A stretch of DNA of 64,000 bases, from assembly GCA_021800275.1 (NCBI GenBank), contig JAJYZB010000003.1:126680-190679 (forward strand), read 5' to 3'. This document shows, piece after piece, positions 5,980 through 14,470 of this stretch. Every line of letters starts with the position of its first letter. Within the stretch, counting starts at the first letter, position 1. Both the position numbers and the translations under genes were made by a program. The DNA is from a bacterium. Its GTDB lineage: Bacteria > Vulcanimicrobiota > JABDET01. The notes beneath the pieces were generated by a model. That model searched no databases, had not been told where the DNA came from, and worked only from the letters and a program-made list of their open reading frames with translations.

Positions 5980-7449
5980 ATGATCCAAAACACTGCTGAA
6001 CCTCCTGTGCTCCAAAAGCCAGGAGCAAAACAAACTCTGCTGGAAAAGAATTTCCTTGACCGCCTCTGGGACTTTTTTAGTTCAGGGCAAATGGCGATCT
6101 GGCTTTTAAGTCTGTCAGGGCTGTCGGTTCTGATCGGAACAATCGTAGAGCAGAACAAGTCTCCTGAAAAATATATCAGGACTTACGGACCTTTGATAGC
6201 TCAATTGATTCAATGGTTCCACATTTACGATCTGTATCACAGTTGGTGGTTCGAAATTATAATGGCGTTTATCTGTCTCAATCTTTTTCTTTCAAACTTT
6301 AATCGAGCTGAAAAAGTGTTAAAAAAATATTACCACGCGTCAGTTCCGATGGAACCTTCCTATTTCAGAGATGCTCCAGCAAAACTAACTCAAAACGTAA
6401 AAGGAGGAATTCAGGAAGCTTGTTTAAAATTGGAAAACTCTTTCCTGAAAATAAAATATAACTTTCAAAAAGAACAATTGGGAGACACCACGTATTATTA
6501 TGCAGAAAAAGGAAAACTCACTGTCTGGGGTTCTCTTGTGGCTCATATTGGACTGCTTCTCCTATTCGTTGGAGTCATTGTGGGGCATTTTTCAGGCGGC
6601 TATTTTTTCGGTCACTATATTCCACCCCAGGGATTTGACAGAACAACCATGCTGCTGCCAGGTCAGAGTTACTACATTCCGGAGGGAGACTTTGGGTTCA
6701 CTTTAAAAAGATTTGTGGCTAGATGGAATAAAGAACGTATTCCTACTCTTTACAGGAGCACAGTTGTTGTTTTTAATAGAAGGGGGAAAGATTTATTCAC
6801 ATCAAACATAGAAGTTAATCACCCTCTTGTTTATCACAATGTAAAAATATATCAAGCCACTTATACTCCAGGTTATATCGTAGGACATTATACGGATTTG
6901 AATGGGAAGAAACATGTCTTTAGAGTCATGGTCCAGCAGGGGGGAAACATGTTTTTTACGATTCATCCACAGAAAGGAAAAGAATGGGTAGGAATGATCA
7001 ATAAATTTATCCCAGATATTGTTTTCGGTCCTGATGGTCAGGTTGGTTCTTTCAGCAAAGAACCCTATAATCCAGGAATTCATCTCTTGTTGGTGACGAA
7101 TATAAAAAAAATGCCTCCAGACCCCAAGAGCATAAAAAAAGTTGGCTGGTTAACCAAAACATTAACCGCATCCTATCACGGAATCCAATTCCATTTTGAC
7201 AAACTGGTTCTGGTCAGCGGCTTTGAAATCAAAAGAGATCTAGGAGTTCCCATTATTTTTACAAGTTTTGCAGTCATTGTTTTAGGAGTCATTTTAACTT
7301 TTTACACACCTCACAAAGTTATTCGCGCCCAGATTGTTTCAAACCCTAATGGTTCACAAATTGTTATTGCTGCTTCCCGAAGAGACAGAGAACAGAACTA
7401 CGAAAAAGATTTCAATTCTATTCAAAAGGTTTTTCAATTAAAATCTTGA
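5980..7449 (+). CDS. resB: Cytochrome c biogenesis protein ResB (Ccs1)
   Basis: Membrane subunit of the System II cytochrome c synthase, 489 residues. Transmembrane segments are visible near residues 38-58, 88-106, 180-203 and 425-447, with the large periplasmic loop between the third and fourth. The family signature NHPLVYHNVKIYQATY is present in that loop. Together with CcsA it moves heme across the membrane and attaches it to CxxCH motifs. It lies 39 bases after the CxxCH protein gene and about 60 bases before ccsA. No strong ribosome site is seen immediately before the ATG. Confidence 0.92.
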   Translation: MIQNTAEPPVLQKPGAKQTLLEKNFLDRLWDFFSSGQMAIWLLSLSGLSVLIGTIVEQNKSPEKYIRTYGPLIAQLIQWFHIYDLYHSWWFEIIMAFICLNLFLSNFNRAEKVLKKYYHASVPMEPSYFRDAPAKLTQNVKGGIQEACLKLENSFLKIKYNFQKEQLGDTTYYYAEKGKLTVWGSLVAHIGLLLLFVGVIVGHFSGGYFFGHYIPPQGFDRTTMLLPGQSYYIPEGDFGFTLKRFVARWNKERIPTLYRSTVVVFNRRGKDLFTSNIEVNHPLVYHNVKIYQATYTPGYIVGHYTDLNGKKHVFRVMVQQGGNMFFTIHPQKGKEWVGMINKFIPDIVFGPDGQVGSFSKEPYNPGIHLLLVTNIKKMPPDPKSIKKVGWLTKTLTASYHGIQFHFDKLVLVSGFEIKRDLGVPIIFTSFAVIVLGVILTFYTPHKVIRAQIVSNPNGSQIVIAASRRDREQNYEKDFNSIQKVFQLKS

Positions 7450-7510: not shown

Positions 7511-8500
7511 ATGCCTCAGCCTCATTATATGGATATAATTTACAATATTATTTGGGGGGGATATCTTCTGGCATCCTTGCTTTATTTGTCTCTCCTGATA
7601 TGGCAGAGCGTGCCATTAGCAAAGACAGCAAAAGCAGTTCTGATCATCACTGTTGTTCTGCAGCTGATCTTCATTTTGCTTCGAATGAGAGCAGACAGAA
7701 ATTATGTTGGATTCTGGTACGCGCCGTTAGCCAATCTTTTTGAAGAAGCAACCTGCCTGACCTTTGCTGTATCTGTTTACTATCTAGTAACAGAATCATT
7801 CACTAATTTCAGGGCGTTAGGTACAATCATTGTTCCATTAAATACACTGCTTGTAACCTGGTGCGCCCTGGGTGGACCAGGAAACAGCGCTATGAGCTAT
7901 AGTCTTGAACAGCCGCCGCCAGCGCTTCGCAGCTACTGGATTGATATTCACGTTCCCACTCATCTAATTGCTTACAGCGCTCTGGTCATCGCTTTTGGGC
8001 TAGCCATTTTCTATCTGATCAAAGCGCCTTATGACAGGGGGTCAGGAAAACTTGTGACCGGATTTTTATCCTGGATTCCTTTTGGCTTTAGGATGAATGA
8101 ATTATTAGGATTTTTAGAGGGCAAGTTGTCCGAATTTTTATCCTGGGTTCCTTCCAGCGATAGAATTGACAAAATGATTTATAGAGCAGTTGTTATAGGC
8201 TTTAGTTTTTTAACTGCCTTAATTATGCTGGGAGCCACATGGGCAGAAGTTTCATGGGGAACCTATTGGGGATGGGATCCAAAAGAAACATCTGCTCTCA
8301 TTACCTGGATCGTATATGCTGTTTACCTTCATGGGAGATTTCTCCTTGGATGGGGGACCAAACAAAGAACTCTTCTAGCTGTCCTCTGTATTGTTGGATT
8401 TGCTTCTCTCATGTTCACCTATCTAGGAGTAAGTTTCCTGCTGCCTGGACTGCACAGCTATCTCAGATCGCTGTCTGTGTTTAACGTTAAACTGATTTAA
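7511..8500 (+). CDS. ccsA: Cytochrome c biogenesis protein CcsA (ResC)
   Basis: Polytopic heme-handling protein of 329 residues that pairs with ResB. The tryptophan-rich WWD motif is clear (WGTYWGWDPKE, about 248-258), followed by conserved ITW and H residues used for heme binding. Several transmembrane helices cover nearly the whole length. The start has a good AAAGGAG site. A strong terminator follows directly, so the heme-attachment operon ends here. Confidence 0.93.
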   Translation: MPQPHYMDIIYNIIWGGYLLASLLYLSLLIWQSVPLAKTAKAVLIITVVLQLIFILLRMRADRNYVGFWYAPLANLFEEATCLTFAVSVYYLVTESFTNFRALGTIIVPLNTLLVTWCALGGPGNSAMSYSLEQPPPALRSYWIDIHVPTHLIAYSALVIAFGLAIFYLIKAPYDRGSGKLVTGFLSWIPFGFRMNELLGFLEGKLSEFLSWVPSSDRIDKMIYRAVVIGFSFLTALIMLGATWAEVSWGTYWGWDPKETSALITWIVYAVYLHGRFLLGWGTKQRTLLAVLCIVGFASLMFTYLGVSFLLPGLHSYLRSLSVFNVKLI

Positions 8501-9447: not shown

Positions 9448-10766
9448 GCCAAAATCTTTCTAATTCAAAAAAATGGCTTGCCAGAGCAAAGGCAGTTCTG
9501 CCAGGAGGAGTAAACTCACCTGTACGAGCTTTTTCAGCAGTTGAAGAAACGCCTCCTTTTATTACCAAGGGATCTGGCAGCAGTCTGTGGGATGAAGATG
9601 GAAATAAGTATATTGATTATGTTTGCTCCTGGGGACCTTTAATCTTAGGACATGCTCACCCATCGGTTGTAAAAGCAGTAAAAGAAGTTTTAGAAAATGG
9701 CTTGACTTTTGGGGCTGCGTCAAGCAGGGAAGTCCTGCTTGCCGAAATGATCCAGGCCGCAGTCCCATCTGTGCAAAAACTAAGACTCGTCACTTCTGGA
9801 ACAGAAGCTGCCATGACTGCTGTTCGACTGGCAAGGGCTTTTACGGGGAAAAATTTAATTTTGAAATTCGAAGGATGTTATCATGGACATGCCGATCCTT
9901 TCCTTGTAAAAGCGGGCTCAGGTCTTTTAACTTTTGGGACTCCTTCTAGTAAAGGAGTCCCTAGAGAAGTCTCTGGCAGCACTCTGGTTGCTGAATACAA
10001 TTGTGAAACTGCTTTGGATGAAATTTTTCTGAAACATAAAAATGAGCTTGCCTGTGTCATCGTTGAACCTGTCGCGGGAAACATGGGAGTCGTTCTGCCA
10101 AAACCCGGTTTTTTAGAGAAACTTTCTATCCTATGCAAACAGACCAAAACAGTTTTAATTTTTGACGAAGTCATAACAGGCTTCAGAACTTGTTACGGAG
10201 GCTATCAGAATATCTGTTCCATTTCTCCTGATTTAACCTGCCTTGGAAAAATCATTGGGGGTGGACTTCCAATGGCTGCTGTAGGAGGAAAGAGAGAAAT
10301 CATGTCTTTACTTTCTCCTGAAGGACCTGTCTATCAAGCAGGAACCCTTGCCGGCAACCCGGCAGCAGCTGCTGCTGGAATTGCCACCTTAAAAATTTTG
10401 AATCAGGAAAAAGAAAAAATTTATCCTCAATTAGAGCGGCAAACTGCCTGGCTGTGTTCAAAAATCAAAGAGGCTGCTGAAAAATTAAAAATTTCTGTAG
10501 GAATCAATCAAATTGGTTCCATGTTTACTCTCTTTTTTACCAGTCACCAGGTTGAAACTTACTCTGATGTCATTTCATCAAGCACTAATCTTTATAAACA
10601 TTTCTTTAAAGAAATGTTTAGGCGCGGCATTTACCTTCCTCCGTCAGCGTTTGAAGCCTGGTTTGTGTCTGTTGCACATACTTGTGAGGATCTCGAAAAA
10701 ACCGCACAGGCAGCAGAGGAAGCACTGCTTAAAGTAAAGGAAAAGGAAACTGTTTCGCTTTTATGA
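9444..10766 (+). CDS. hemL: Glutamate-1-semialdehyde 2,1-aminomutase
   Basis: PLP enzyme of 440 residues that makes 5-aminolevulinate from glutamate-1-semialdehyde, the C5 route to heme. Visible landmarks are the N-terminal PGGVNSPVRAF, the PLP lysine in CLGKIIGGGLPMAAVGG (about K268), and AGTLAGNPAAAAAG. It overlaps hemD at its start and the TPR gene at its end, both by four bases, so the three form one unit. Use of the C5 pathway is expected for most bacteria outside the alphaproteobacteria. Confidence 0.95.
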   Translation: MSQNLSNSKKWLARAKAVLPGGVNSPVRAFSAVEETPPFITKGSGSSLWDEDGNKYIDYVCSWGPLILGHAHPSVVKAVKEVLENGLTFGAASSREVLLAEMIQAAVPSVQKLRLVTSGTEAAMTAVRLARAFTGKNLILKFEGCYHGHADPFLVKAGSGLLTFGTPSSKGVPREVSGSTLVAEYNCETALDEIFLKHKNELACVIVEPVAGNMGVVLPKPGFLEKLSILCKQTKTVLIFDEVITGFRTCYGGYQNICSISPDLTCLGKIIGGGLPMAAVGGKREIMSLLSPEGPVYQAGTLAGNPAAAAAGIATLKILNQEKEKIYPQLERQTAWLCSKIKEAAEKLKISVGINQIGSMFTLFFTSHQVETYSDVISSSTNLYKHFFKEMFRRGIYLPPSAFEAWFVSVAHTCEDLEKTAQAAEEALLKVKEKETVSLL

Positions 10767-11608
10767 ATGACAAAATTAAAGATTGCATTCAAGAAGGCAA
10801 CAAAGCTTTAAACCAGAAAGATCTGGATACTGCCCTCAACTGGTATGAAAGAGCACTCGAATTTTCTCCTACGGAAAAAGAAATTCATGAAAAAATTATT
10901 CAAATATATATTCAAAAAAAAGATAGAAATGGATATCTAGAAGCCGTTAATCGTTACAGAAGTGCAAAAGACGCACTTGCTGCGCCTCAGCAAGCTCCAC
11001 CTCAAAGGTTCTATTCAGCCCCTAAATCACCTGAACCCTTTAAACTCCCTGAAACTCCTAAACCCATCCCTAAATCACCTGAACCCTTTAAACTCCCTGA
11101 AACTCCTAAACCCATCTCTAAATCACCTGAACCCTTTAAACTCCCTGAAACTCCTAAACCCATCCCTAAATCACCTGAACCCTTTAAACTCCCTGAAACT
11201 CCTAAACCCATCCCTAAATCACCTGAACCCTTTAAACTCCCTGAAACTCCTAAACCCATCCCTAAAAACAAACCTAGTGAGATCTTTTTGTCAGATTCTA
11301 TTGAAGCTGGCCCTCCACCCAAAACCGCTCCTGAAGTGTCTGATGCTGAAATGATTGAAGCAGATGCTGAGCAGTGGGAAAAAAGAAACGAAAAAGAAAC
11401 CGCTTCAAAATCCTACGCAAGAGCCGCTTCCCTCTGGAAACAGAAAGGAGATACAACTCGCGCAGGCATGGCTTACGAAAAATCTTATCAACTTTTTCCT
11501 GATCCTGAAGTGCTTTCCAAATTAAATGAGCTTTACAGCCAGGGAGTCAAACTAAAGCAGTCAACCATTATGGAAATTTATAAAAAAATCTATCACATGA
11601 AAATGTAA
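10763..11608 (+). CDS. TPR protein with five 16-residue Pro-rich repeats
   Basis: Protein of 281 residues without a signal peptide. The N-terminal 75 residues form TPR-like helices (ALNQKDLDTALNWYERALEF), and the C-terminal 90 residues are helical and TPR-like too (RAGMAYEKSYQLFPDP). Between them, residues about 88-167 hold five tandem copies of KSPEPFKLPETPKPIP, a Pro/Lys/Glu-rich stiff linker. It is translationally coupled to hemL by ATGA and followed closely by the PilZ gene. A scaffold role linking two TPR domains is likely; partners are unknown. Confidence 0.75.
   Translation: MNDKIKDCIQEGNKALNQKDLDTALNWYERALEFSPTEKEIHEKIIQIYIQKKDRNGYLEAVNRYRSAKDALAAPQQAPPQRFYSAPKSPEPFKLPETPKPIPKSPEPFKLPETPKPISKSPEPFKLPETPKPIPKSPEPFKLPETPKPIPKSPEPFKLPETPKPIPKNKPSEIFLSDSIEAGPPPKTAPEVSDAEMIEADAEQWEKRNEKETASKSYARAASLWKQKGDTTRAGMAYEKSYQLFPDPEVLSKLNELYSQGVKLKQSTIMEIYKKIYHMKM
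11024..11263 (+). repeat. 48-bp coding minisatellite, five units
   Basis: Five head-to-tail units of 48 bp (starts 11024, 11072, 11120, 11168, 11216). They are identical by eye except for one C-to-T change in unit 2 (CCT to TCT, Pro to Ser). The unit is a multiple of three, so copy number can change without a frameshift. Confidence 0.95.
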
Positions 11609-11621
11609 GGAGCGTTCCGAA

Positions 11622-11987
11622 TTGGATAATTACGAAGAAAGAAGAGAGTTTGTAAGAATGCCTGCCAGCGCTAAAGCGGTTGTTCGGCAAAATAGAAAAA
11701 AATGGGACGCAGCGGTCGTTGACATCAGCCCAGGAGGGTGTCAACTTCTATGTTCTGAGAAACTGAAAAAAGAAGATCCAATAAAATTAGATTTTATTTT
11801 AAATGAACAGGATCCAGTAATTCAAATTCAAGGAAAAATCGCATGGACAAAAAAACACGAATCCGAACCCTTGTGGAACCACGGAATCCAATTCAAAGAG
11901 AGAGAAAAATTTGAAAAGTTAGGCCCCATGTTTCTGGACTATCTAGCTTTTAAAAAAAAGATGAATTTATTAAAAAAGGTGAAATGA
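11622..11987 (+). CDS. PilZ-domain c-di-GMP-binding protein
   Basis: Small cytoplasmic protein of 121 residues consisting of one PilZ domain. Both halves of the c-di-GMP binding signature are present: ERREFVRM near residues 5-12 (RxxxR type) and DISPGG near residue 39-44 (D/NxSxxG). It starts at TTG behind AAGGAG, 13 bases after the TPR stop, and precedes the di-heme sensors. It may read c-di-GMP for the neighbouring membrane module or act elsewhere. Confidence 0.88.
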   Translation: MDNYEERREFVRMPASAKAVVRQNRKKWDAAVVDISPGGCQLLCSEKLKKEDPIKLDFILNEQDPVIQIQGKIAWTKKHESEPLWNHGIQFKEREKFEKLGPMFLDYLAFKKKMNLLKKVK

Positions 11988-12015: not shown

Positions 12016-12969
12016 ATGAAATTTATTTACAGCATAAGATTCAGACTCTGGAGTTCAATCTTAGTGTTTGTTTTGCTTTTTATGCCTGTCCTATGGTATA
12101 TCGCTATCCATTTCGGAAAAAAAGAGCTGAAATCCACTTATAAAACCAGCAGGAGAGAAATCATAAAAAATACCAAAACCTGGACCGCAATTACGGCTCG
12201 TTTAATCTTTGGTTCACTTCGAGAATCCATGGCGAAATACGATGTCAGCGCCATGGAAAAAATTGTGCAGATGGCTAGAGCGCAGAAGGACATTGAAGCG
12301 GTTCGAATTTTTGGTCCCAAAACTTTTCCGGGACCTAACAACTCACTTGTAGGGCAGCTGAGATTTGATGGCGACACAAAAAAACACCCTTCTTTAGTAT
12401 ATAACATTGAATGCAGCGCCTGCCATACTTCAACAGAAGCCTTGAGGTTTAAAATGAAAACTCGTAAAGCTGCAATGGTGGATGCTCAGGCAAGAATCGA
12501 TGTCCGCACACATGCTCTCAACATAAGAAAGCACAGAGTTTTCGAAATGATTGTTCATGTGTTTAATCAGGCTGATCCTTGTTATCAATGCCATCTACCA
12601 ACACAAAAAGTTAATGGTGTTATCCAGGTGGACATCTCTGAAAAAAATGTCCGCAAACTTTTGCGAGCCATGAAAAAGAACGAAGAAAAGACAAAAAAGA
12701 AATTCGAACAGCAAACTGTTCTATGGACATTCATCTTCATGTTTATATCTTCCGCTATTCTGCTATTTATCGCCACTGGAATTGTCAATAAACTGGCTAA
12801 ACTAAAATCTTTAGCTGAACAAGTCAGCCTTGGAGAAACCAATGTAACCCTGGATGACATACCACCATCAGCCGATGAACTCGGAGAACTTAGAGATTCC
12901 TTTGAACGCATGCTGGTCGCAGTTAAATTCTTCATGACGCCAGAAGAAGAACCGGAGGAACCTGTTTAA
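12016..12969 (+). CDS. Di-heme c-type sensor with HAMP domain (copy 1)
   Basis: Membrane protein of 317 residues. Transmembrane helix 1 lies at about 11-31, followed by a periplasmic domain of about 200 residues with two c-type heme sites, CSACH (133-137) and CYQCH (189-193). Helix 2 is at about 235-255, and a HAMP domain follows (about 256-302, ending ELRDSFERML), then an acidic tail EEEPEEPV. There is no kinase, cyclase or methyl-accepting domain, so the signal must leave through another protein. The stop overlaps the start of the small gene by one base. Redox or gas sensing through the hemes is inferred from the architecture. Confidence 0.85.
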   Translation: MKFIYSIRFRLWSSILVFVLLFMPVLWYIAIHFGKKELKSTYKTSRREIIKNTKTWTAITARLIFGSLRESMAKYDVSAMEKIVQMARAQKDIEAVRIFGPKTFPGPNNSLVGQLRFDGDTKKHPSLVYNIECSACHTSTEALRFKMKTRKAAMVDAQARIDVRTHALNIRKHRVFEMIVHVFNQADPCYQCHLPTQKVNGVIQVDISEKNVRKLLRAMKKNEEKTKKKFEQQTVLWTFIFMFISSAILLFIATGIVNKLAKLKSLAEQVSLGETNVTLDDIPPSADELGELRDSFERMLVAVKFFMTPEEEPEEPV

Positions 12970-13180
12970 TGGCTCTTTACGATGATATCGTCTCTGTTTC
13001 TAAACCCTATCTGGGAATCGCCACTGACGCTTTTCTAAAACGCCAGTTGAAACATATTAACCGCACCCCTGAATCACTGGATAAATCCTGCATCCCTGAA
13101 CTCTCAAAATGGATCGAAATCTCCGCAAAAATGCTCATGGGTGAAGCTAAAGCTAAAAACCTAAAAGAAAAAATCTTGAA
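12753..13180 (+). repeat. Tandem duplication, unit 1 (HAMP end plus small gene)
   Basis: 428-bp block covering the second transmembrane helix, HAMP and the small gene of copy 1. It matches 13939-14366 at a constant offset of 1186 bp. A few substitutions fall in the HAMP part; the small gene part is identical. Confidence 0.92.
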
Positions 13181-13196
13181 CATGGGGCAGCCATGA
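12969..13196 (+). CDS. Small protein coupled to di-heme HAMP sensor (copy 1)
   Basis: Soluble, mostly helical protein of 75 residues starting MALYDDIVSVSKPYLG, with no signal or membrane segment. I do not recognise the family. The start codon shares one base with the sensor stop (TAATG) and its own stop overlaps the next sensor start by four bases, so translation is coupled both ways. Residues 1-71 are identical to the second copy at 14155, ending differently (NMGQP here). The fixed pairing with a HAMP protein lacking an output domain makes a partner or output role likely. Confidence 0.8.
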   Translation: MALYDDIVSVSKPYLGIATDAFLKRQLKHINRTPESLDKSCIPELSKWIEISAKMLMGEAKAKNLKEKILNMGQP

Positions 13197-14155
13197 AGTT
13201 CGTTCACAGCATCAGATTCAAGCTCATGGCTGCGATCTTTGCCTTTATTATCATATCTGTTCCCCTGCTCGTCATAACGGTTCTTCATTTTGGCAAAAAA
13301 GAACTGCAGGTCACATACGTAGAAGGAAGAAACAAAATCATGAGTGATACCCAAGAGTGGTCTCTAGTTCTCACCCATTTAACCTTTGGAGCGCTCAGCA
13401 GATCCATGGATGATGGCGACGTGGATGCTTTGCAAAAACTGACTACAATGGCAAGGGAGCAGAAAGACATTGCTGCAGTTCGCATCTTCAGTCCAGAATT
13501 TGCGGCAGGGACTAACGGAAAATTGAACGGCATCTTACTTTTCACTGGAGATACCCACGGATTTCCTAAAGAAGTAAAGAAAATTAACTGTGGAGAATGC
13601 CACAACAGCGATGGAACCTTAAATCAGACGGGACTTGCTCTAAAACCTAAGCCCTCCATGCTGGATTCTCAAGTCCGTATTGACGCAAACTGGAGAGCTA
13701 AAAATTTACAAGGAAATCGCTCCTTTGATATGATTGTTCATGTGTTTAATCAAGCCTCTTGTTCTGAATGCCATACCCACCCATCCACCCAAAAAGTGGA
13801 TGGAGTGCTGCAAGTCAACCTTTCTCTAAGAGGCGTGAAAAAACTTCTGCGGAGGATGAAACGAAGAGCAGAAAGAAATGAACAACGCTTTAAAAATGAA
13901 GTTATTGTATGGACATTGGTTTGTGTTGTTGTTCTCGCTGCTATTCTGCTATTTATCGCCACTGGAATTGTCAATAAACTGGCTAAACTTCGATATATTG
14001 CTGAACAGGTCAGCCTTGGAGAAACCAATGTAACCCTGGATGACATACCTCCATCAGCCGATGAACTTGGGGAACTTAGAGATTCCTTTGAACGCATGTT
14101 GATCGCAGTTAAATTCTTTATGATGCCAGAAGAAGAACCGGAGGAACCTGTTTAA
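13193..14155 (+). CDS. Di-heme c-type sensor with HAMP domain (copy 2)
   Basis: Paralogue of the gene at 12016, 320 residues with the same plan: helix 1 (about 11-31), periplasmic domain with heme sites CGECH (133-137) and CSECH (190-194), helix 2 (about 239-258), HAMP and an acidic tail. The periplasmic part has clearly diverged from copy 1, whereas the stretch from helix 2 to the stop is nearly identical. It overlaps the preceding small gene by four bases and the following one by one base. The two copies probably sense different ranges or ligands through the same output. Confidence 0.85.
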   Translation: MKFVHSIRFKLMAAIFAFIIISVPLLVITVLHFGKKELQVTYVEGRNKIMSDTQEWSLVLTHLTFGALSRSMDDGDVDALQKLTTMAREQKDIAAVRIFSPEFAAGTNGKLNGILLFTGDTHGFPKEVKKINCGECHNSDGTLNQTGLALKPKPSMLDSQVRIDANWRAKNLQGNRSFDMIVHVFNQASCSECHTHPSTQKVDGVLQVNLSLRGVKKLLRRMKRRAERNEQRFKNEVIVWTLVCVVVLAAILLFIATGIVNKLAKLRYIAEQVSLGETNVTLDDIPPSADELGELRDSFERMLIAVKFFMMPEEEPEEPV

Positions 14156-14366
14156 TGGCTCTTTACGATGATATCGTCTCTGTTTCTAAACCCTATCTGG
14201 GAATCGCCACTGACGCTTTTCTAAAACGCCAGTTGAAACATATTAACCGCACCCCTGAATCACTGGATAAATCCTGCATCCCTGAACTCTCAAAATGGAT
14301 CGAAATCTCCGCAAAAATGCTCATGGGTGAAGCTAAAGCTAAAAACCTAAAAGAAAAAATCTTGAA
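13939..14366 (+). repeat. Tandem duplication, unit 2 (HAMP end plus small gene)
   Basis: Second copy of the 428-bp block at 12753-13180. Identity stops abruptly at both ends: inside the second transmembrane helix on the left and six bases before the end of the small genes on the right. Confidence 0.92.
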
Positions 14367-14376
14367 AATGGATTAG
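14155..14376 (+). CDS. Small protein coupled to di-heme HAMP sensor (copy 2)
   Basis: Protein of 73 residues; its first 71 residues and the underlying 212 bases match the copy at 12969 exactly by eye, then it ends KMD. It shares one base with the stop of the second sensor (TAATG). It is the last gene of the operon and runs up against the convergent tRNA-Ser gene five bases later. Function unknown; see the first copy. Confidence 0.8.
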   Translation: MALYDDIVSVSKPYLGIATDAFLKRQLKHINRTPESLDKSCIPELSKWIEISAKMLMGEAKAKNLKEKILKMD

Positions 14377-14380
14377 AACT

Positions 14381-14470
14381 TGGCGGAGAGAGAGGGATTC
14401 GAACCCCCGATGAGCTTGCACTCATAACGGTTTTCAAGACCGCCGCCATCAACCGCTCGGCCATCTCTCC
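14381..14470 (-). tRNA. tRNA-Ser (anticodon UGA)
   Basis: 90-base tRNA on the minus strand with acceptor stem GGAGAGA/TCTCTCC, D-arm GCCGAGCGG, anticodon loop CTTGAAA (anticodon TGA), a long variable arm typical of class II tRNA, and T-arm GGGGGTTCGAATCCC. The discriminator is G, the serine identity base, and the 3' CCA is encoded in the DNA. Confidence 0.96.

Follow-up and report, generated by a model that had tools for sequence, protein, structure and literature searches.

Af1503 from Archaeoglobus fulgidus has become a model for HAMP signalling. In this archaeal receptor, HAMP is the sole cytosolic part after an extracytoplasmic sensor and transmembrane (TM) helices, with no output domain, and its gene is translationally coupled to that of a STAC protein of 60–90 aa, Af1502, located directly downstream (PDB 5A1Q; PMC4834066). 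The crystal structure of Af1502 (5A1Q) is a four-helix bundle made of two hairpins. The STAC motif, LGPx(x)A, lies between helices 1 and 2, and according to its authors Af1502 itself was not reached by sequence searches of the kind used here (PMC4834066). Elsewhere, STAC is a connector domain that joins SLC5 transporters to kinases in CbrA (PMC13022988). In the SLC5-STAC kinases CbrA, CrbS, and RpuS, it is fused between the transporter and kinase domains (PMC13022988, PMC5715377, PMC9100948). Related c-type heme sensors have also been described. The Geobacter chemoreceptors GSU0935 and GSU0582 carry a periplasmic heme c domain (PF21563, Mcp40H) before HAMP, with one heme and the MCP output in the same chain; the Mcp40H/GSU0935 sensor has a PAS-like fold (PMC3460858). 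The sCache_heme domain (DUF3365/Tll0287) is a periplasmic c-type heme sensor with one conserved CxxCH, is fused to signalling modules in part of the family, and reportedly occurs seldom or not at all in Chloroflexota and many further phyla of Terrabacteria (PMC12889525). Our literature search for di-heme HAMP sensors or other outputless receptors found nothing closer than these systems.

Here, we describe two tandem units, each a HAMP receptor followed by a small gene, in a bacterial window of 64,000 nucleotides (the whole stretch of DNA that was analysed). An outputless HAMP receptor with a STAC adaptor is a kind of system already known from Af1503/Af1502. Against the literature searched, the new elements are a di-heme variant in bacteria, coupling that spans two phyla whatever the sensor, fusions of STAC to TPRs, and gene conversion limited to the HAMP-tail and STAC gene. 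One relative with a receptor-STAC pair beside a soluble MCP is also new. The system bears on how a HAMP domain with nothing attached signals and on the role of STAC.

Results

The two receptors and two small genes are all open reading frames on the + strand, with the following parts.

12016..12969, + strand: receptor 1 (317 aa), with TM1, putative periplasmic di-heme c sensor, TM2, HAMP, acidic tail, and no output domain (open reading frame, Pfam, alignment of relatives)
12412..12426, + strand: predicted heme c site 1 of receptor 1, CxxCH (C133–H137), invariant in relatives
12580..12594, + strand: predicted heme c site 2 of receptor 1, CxxCH (C189–H193), invariant in relatives
12769..12918, + strand: HAMP domain of receptor 1 (residues 252–301; Pfam, profile against PDB)
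12919..12966, + strand: tail of receptor 1 (..VAVKFFMTPEEEPEEPV), containing the GGAGGA ribosome-binding site of small gene 1
12969..13196, + strand: small protein 1, STAC-like (75 aa), starting in the TAATG overlap
13193..14155, + strand: receptor 2 (320 aa), architecture as receptor 1, starting in the ATGA overlap
13589..13603, + strand: predicted heme c site 1 of receptor 2, CxxCH (C133–H137), invariant in relatives
13760..13774, + strand: predicted heme c site 2 of receptor 2, CxxCH (C190–H194), invariant in relatives
13955..14101, + strand: HAMP domain of receptor 2 (residues 255–303; Pfam)
14155..14376, + strand: small protein 2, STAC-like (73 aa), residues 1–70 identical to copy 1

Each receptor has a periplasmic part of ~200 residues between its N-terminal TM helix and TM2. 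Its HAMP domain scored 22 bits against a Pfam cut-off of 25, just under threshold, and that of receptor 1 reached 25.5 bits in the genome search. A profile of receptor relatives matched solved HAMP structures in the PDB with an E-value of 9e-10. Judged from these scores and profiles, the HAMP domain is real though weak in score. Only ~15 residues follow it in both receptors, acidic at the end. A sequence-only reading of this DNA had described two consecutive units, each a membrane protein with two periplasmic CxxCH sites and HAMP but without output, ending after a short acidic tail and overlapping a small protein of 73–75 residues by one base. The open reading frames, Pfam, and the sequence of both units agree with that description.

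At both receptor/small gene junctions, stop and start share one base (TAATG), and small gene 1 overlaps receptor 2 by 4 bases (ATGA). The GGAGGA ribosome-binding site of each small gene lies within acidic-tail codons (12954–12959 and 14140–14145). These overlaps, together with the placement of GGAGGA inside the tail codons, indicate that translation of receptor and small gene is almost certainly coupled, as it is in Af1503/Af1502.

The small protein matched no family and no STAC model in Pfam or NCBIfam, and PDB sequence searches with it returned nothing meaningful. Matches to "Cake" designs in the PDB search were repeat artefacts, and an HPt or CheW-type adaptor identity was dropped because no such family matched. 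The predicted structure of the small protein is all-helical, with a pLDDT of 90. In a Foldseek search of the PDB (350,542 chains), Af1502 (5a1q_A/B) had the best TM-scores (0.68–0.75) and the highest probabilities (0.90 and 0.82) among the matches listed, superposing with an rmsd of 2.2–2.3 over 68 residues; its E-value of 1.5 is not significant alone. Four-helix bundles are a common fold. DSSP wrote helices 1 and 2 of the model as a single unbroken segment. The size of the small proteins falls in the 60–90 residue range of stand-alone STACs. Relatives have [LMF]GPAA at the STAC motif position, fitting the published motif. In the window copies and in G004 the LGPxA motif is reduced to LGIAT, and sequence searches with the small-protein family gave no match to Af1502. 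When the receptor HAMP-tail profile was compared with the PDB, the native Af1503 HAMP ranked first (E 8.8e-10), with the alignment extending through the tail; this rank is aided by the over-representation of Af1503 entries. The predicted fold, the motif in relatives, and the gene context together make the small protein very probably a STAC domain. The sequence-only reading had not recognised this family, and the arrangement was already published for Af1503/Af1502 (PMC4834066).

A profile search for STAC relatives covered 400 Chloroflexota genomes and 393 genomes of one class. In all, 17 genomes (Armatimonadota-like and Chloroflexota) had STAC-domain homologues, a count that leaves out two weak matches in G305 and G062 (L057, L058), which lie inside unrelated genes and were discarded. 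The domain adjoins an outputless HAMP receptor in 16 of the 17 genomes, namely G000, G001, G004, G149, G215, G681, G872, and nine Chloroflexota with STAC-TPR proteins. HAMP was Pfam-confirmed in six of the related receptors and read from sequence in the others. The receptor lies upstream of STAC in G000, G001, G004, G215, G872, and the nine STAC-TPR genomes; in G149 and G681 STAC comes first. Both units, with the surroundings seen in the window, recur in the sister species G001, and G004, a relative from the same phylum that was deposited as an Armatimonadetes MAG, carries a single receptor-STAC unit. In the nine Chloroflexota, the STAC-like domain is found at the N-terminal end of TPR proteins that also contain proline-rich regions (L031–L039). 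Each of these genes directly follows a HAMP-only receptor gene, with a dCache sensor in the two that were Pfam-checked. The sensor domains of STAC-paired receptors are unlike one another (di-heme, dCache, and 4HB, a four-helix bundle). All of the receptors share an end resembling (S/A)FxRM(L/V)xA(V/L)(K/R)F, followed by acidic residues.

Two exceptions were found. G585 encodes a 358-aa protein with about four STAC-like repeats (LGPQA, MGPAA, LGARG, VGPAG; L094 6086–7162, also L090 652–1728); it has no Pfam match, and no HAMP gene was seen in the 14-kb stretch. G004 has a second di-heme outputless HAMP receptor (L068 1402–2313, C318) with no STAC gene adjacent, and the tail of this receptor lacks the glutamate run. 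Plasmid records contained no small-protein homologue.

The sequence-only reading had taken the small protein for either the separated output of the receptor or an adaptor, and had asked whether its homologues always follow HAMP genes. They lie beside such a gene in the 16 genomes above, with the order reversed in two. This adjacency makes the small protein very likely a separate partner or adaptor of the receptor. A separated output fits less well: STAC is not known to have a catalytic activity, and with its connector role in CbrA, STAC is better viewed as an adaptor to a further component.

Comparison of the two units showed very uneven divergence. DNA identity between unit 1 and unit 2 of the window is 55% in the sensor, 93% in the HAMP-tail, and 98% in the small gene; the corresponding values in G001 are 57%, 89%, and 97%. 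Orthologous comparisons between the window and G001 give 78–87% throughout. Quartet sites support orthology over paralogy in the sensor (156 versus 18; alignment columns 0–810) and paralogy over orthology in the HAMP-tail (14 versus 1) and STAC (26 versus 0). This pattern shows that the segment from HAMP to the STAC end was homogenised in at least one lineage, with the sensors kept distinct. Most simply, the HAMP-tail and STAC may act as one functional unit common to two inputs. Neutral conversion with selection holding the sensors apart would give the same picture. The limited conversion is a natural experiment that offers evolutionary evidence for one functional unit.

Both CxxCH sites are invariant in all aligned relatives. 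We infer that heme is covalently attached at these sites and that the sensor binds two c-type hemes. Two cytochrome c assembly genes in the window could attach them.

5980–7449, + strand: ResB, cytochrome c assembly
7511–8500, + strand: CcsA-type cytochrome c assembly gene

The window sensors resemble the GSU0935/GSU0582 sensors in their periplasmic position before HAMP and in weak similarity over the CxxCH region. They differ in having two CxxCH sites and no output, and PF21563 scored 19.6 and 16.1 bits, under its cut-off of 27. Against PF11845 (sCache_heme), the window sensor, again with two CxxCH sites rather than one, gave an E-value of 0.15 and 12.9 bits against a cut-off of 24.1, which would place it outside this family by the Pfam test. 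The sensor structure model was poor (pLDDT 59), and a fold search with it was uninformative. By analogy with related heme c sensors (PMC12889525), sensing of nitric oxide or redox state is a reasonable guess.

Upstream of receptor 1 lie PilZ, TPR, hemL, and hemD genes, with the ResB and CcsA-type genes further up and a terminator-like hairpin after the CcsA-type gene.

10763..11608, + strand: TPR protein, encoded further up in this gene run, containing a proline-rich region of 48-bp repeats
11622..11987, + strand: PilZ-domain protein immediately before receptor 1, a possible co-operonic partner, with the c-di-GMP motifs RxxxR and DxSxxG; order same in the sister species
14381–14470, − strand: tRNA-Ser (TGA), 5 bases past the stop of small gene 2, closing the gene run

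No transporter gene adjoins the receptor-STAC units in the window, unlike receptors of the Af1503 type, which often lie near membrane transport genes. The G872 pair adjoins transporter genes (Opp ABC). A near-perfect 48-bp tandem repeat occupies 11020–11266 of the window in 5 copies and encodes PEPFKLPETPKPIPKS repeats in the TPR protein. The P-rich repeat of the TPR protein in the sister species is longer and different.

Discussion

We propose, with a probability of about 0.8, that each unit is a transmembrane receptor with an adaptor of the Af1503/Af1502 kind, working as follows. The periplasmic domain with two c-type hemes would respond to a heme ligand or to a change in redox state, and the resulting signal would cross TM2 to HAMP, where the receptor chain ends. 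The separately made four-helix STAC protein would dock at the HAMP end and tail, and the docked STAC would pass the state of HAMP on to another component in the cytoplasm. Because the sensors differ and the HAMP-tail and STAC are almost identical, the two inputs probably feed one output. Compared with the archaeal pair, the host here is bacterial, the sensor has two c-type heme sites, and two tandem units are present with concerted HAMP-STAC evolution. As in CbrA, CrbS, and RpuS, STAC would be a small helical bundle between a membrane protein and signalling machinery, but the window protein stands alone, encoded next to a HAMP receptor whose chain has neither transporter nor kinase.

The small protein could instead be an unrelated helical bundle, such as a factor for receptor stability or assembly. 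The lack of a Pfam or NCBIfam family, the lack of a sequence link from the small protein to Af1502 or CbrA, and a structural match to 5a1q that is not significant by E-value alone would all fit such a protein. We consider this unlikely, as the best TM-score fell on the one protein whose coupling to an outputless HAMP receptor had been published before, the GPxA signature is present in relatives, and the Af1503 HAMP ranked first; the STAC-TPR fusions also suggest a signalling or scaffold role. Far less probable still are degenerate receptors, that is, former chemoreceptors that lost their output, with the small gene hitch-hiking. The receptors do have no output domain and no demonstrated partner. 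However, the reading frames are intact, the heme sites are conserved, the tail and coupling are kept across two phyla, and both species retain both units and homogenise the HAMP-tail and STAC.

Two candidates for the component beyond STAC were weighed, both tentatively. STAC may link a soluble MCP to the outputless HAMP receptor; the trio would then do the work that a membrane chemoreceptor does in a single chain, controlling CheA. This split chemoreceptor is a more specific version of the receptor-adaptor reading, not an alternative to it. In G004, the gene for a soluble MCP (MCPsignal E 9e-49) precedes receptor and STAC on their strand at a distance of 43 bp, and its product shares 44% identity over 387 aa with the MCP of the complete che cluster in the window genome (contig 28, L069 1739–9459: CheR-CheB-CheD-CheC/X-CheY-CheA-CheW and a soluble MCP). 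The window genome has only two MCPs, neither with a transmembrane segment. G149 and G215 show TM-less MCPs only, with frames possibly cut at the locus edge, and MCPs are present in 5 of 5 stand-alone-STAC genomes tested. Against this, the MCP neighbour was seen once, the MCPs of the window genome are on another contig, G001 and G004 also have membrane MCPs, and soluble MCPs are common in general. MCPs are absent from all nine STAC-TPR genomes, which rules them out as the universal partner of STAC. A soluble chemoreceptor as the STAC target is a testable guess, and a heme-sensing HAMP receptor that uses STAC as a clutch on soluble MCPs and CheA, with gene conversion locking two sensors to one output, is a speculative possibility. 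The partner may alternatively be encoded in the same gene run, with STAC acting on the upstream TPR and/or PilZ protein and thereby turning periplasmic redox state into a c-di-GMP-dependent output. The sister species keeps the order TPR-PilZ-receptor-STAC-receptor-STAC, nine Chloroflexota have STAC fused to TPRs, and the PilZ protein has a Pfam match of 4e-16 with both c-di-GMP motifs visible. This version is doubtful to a similar degree, since neither gene lies near the G004, G215, G872, or G681 pairs, and the presence of hemD-hemL further up the run points to mere co-location. Comparison with the STAC-TPR proteins gave no support for their homology to the window TPR protein (E 2.1 and 0.6).

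For the receptor-adaptor reading, the bacterial system offers redox-type sensors and, in one relative, an adjacent candidate effector. Direct interaction tests are simple here, involving a single small protein and a short stretch of receptor tail.

Two relatives gave further observations. In G149, a second STAC-like copy (L024 8590–8816), frameshifted across two reading frames, lies beside the intact copy. The locus neighbours are two MerR-like HTH genes and the receptor, with T2SSE/T2SSF-type pilus genes upstream. In G004, a few kb from the receptor-STAC pair, a multiheme cytochrome c gene is followed by a gene for a large outer-membrane-barrel-like protein with no Pfam match (L015 2625–6193). 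A role of these two genes in extracellular electron transfer is possible.
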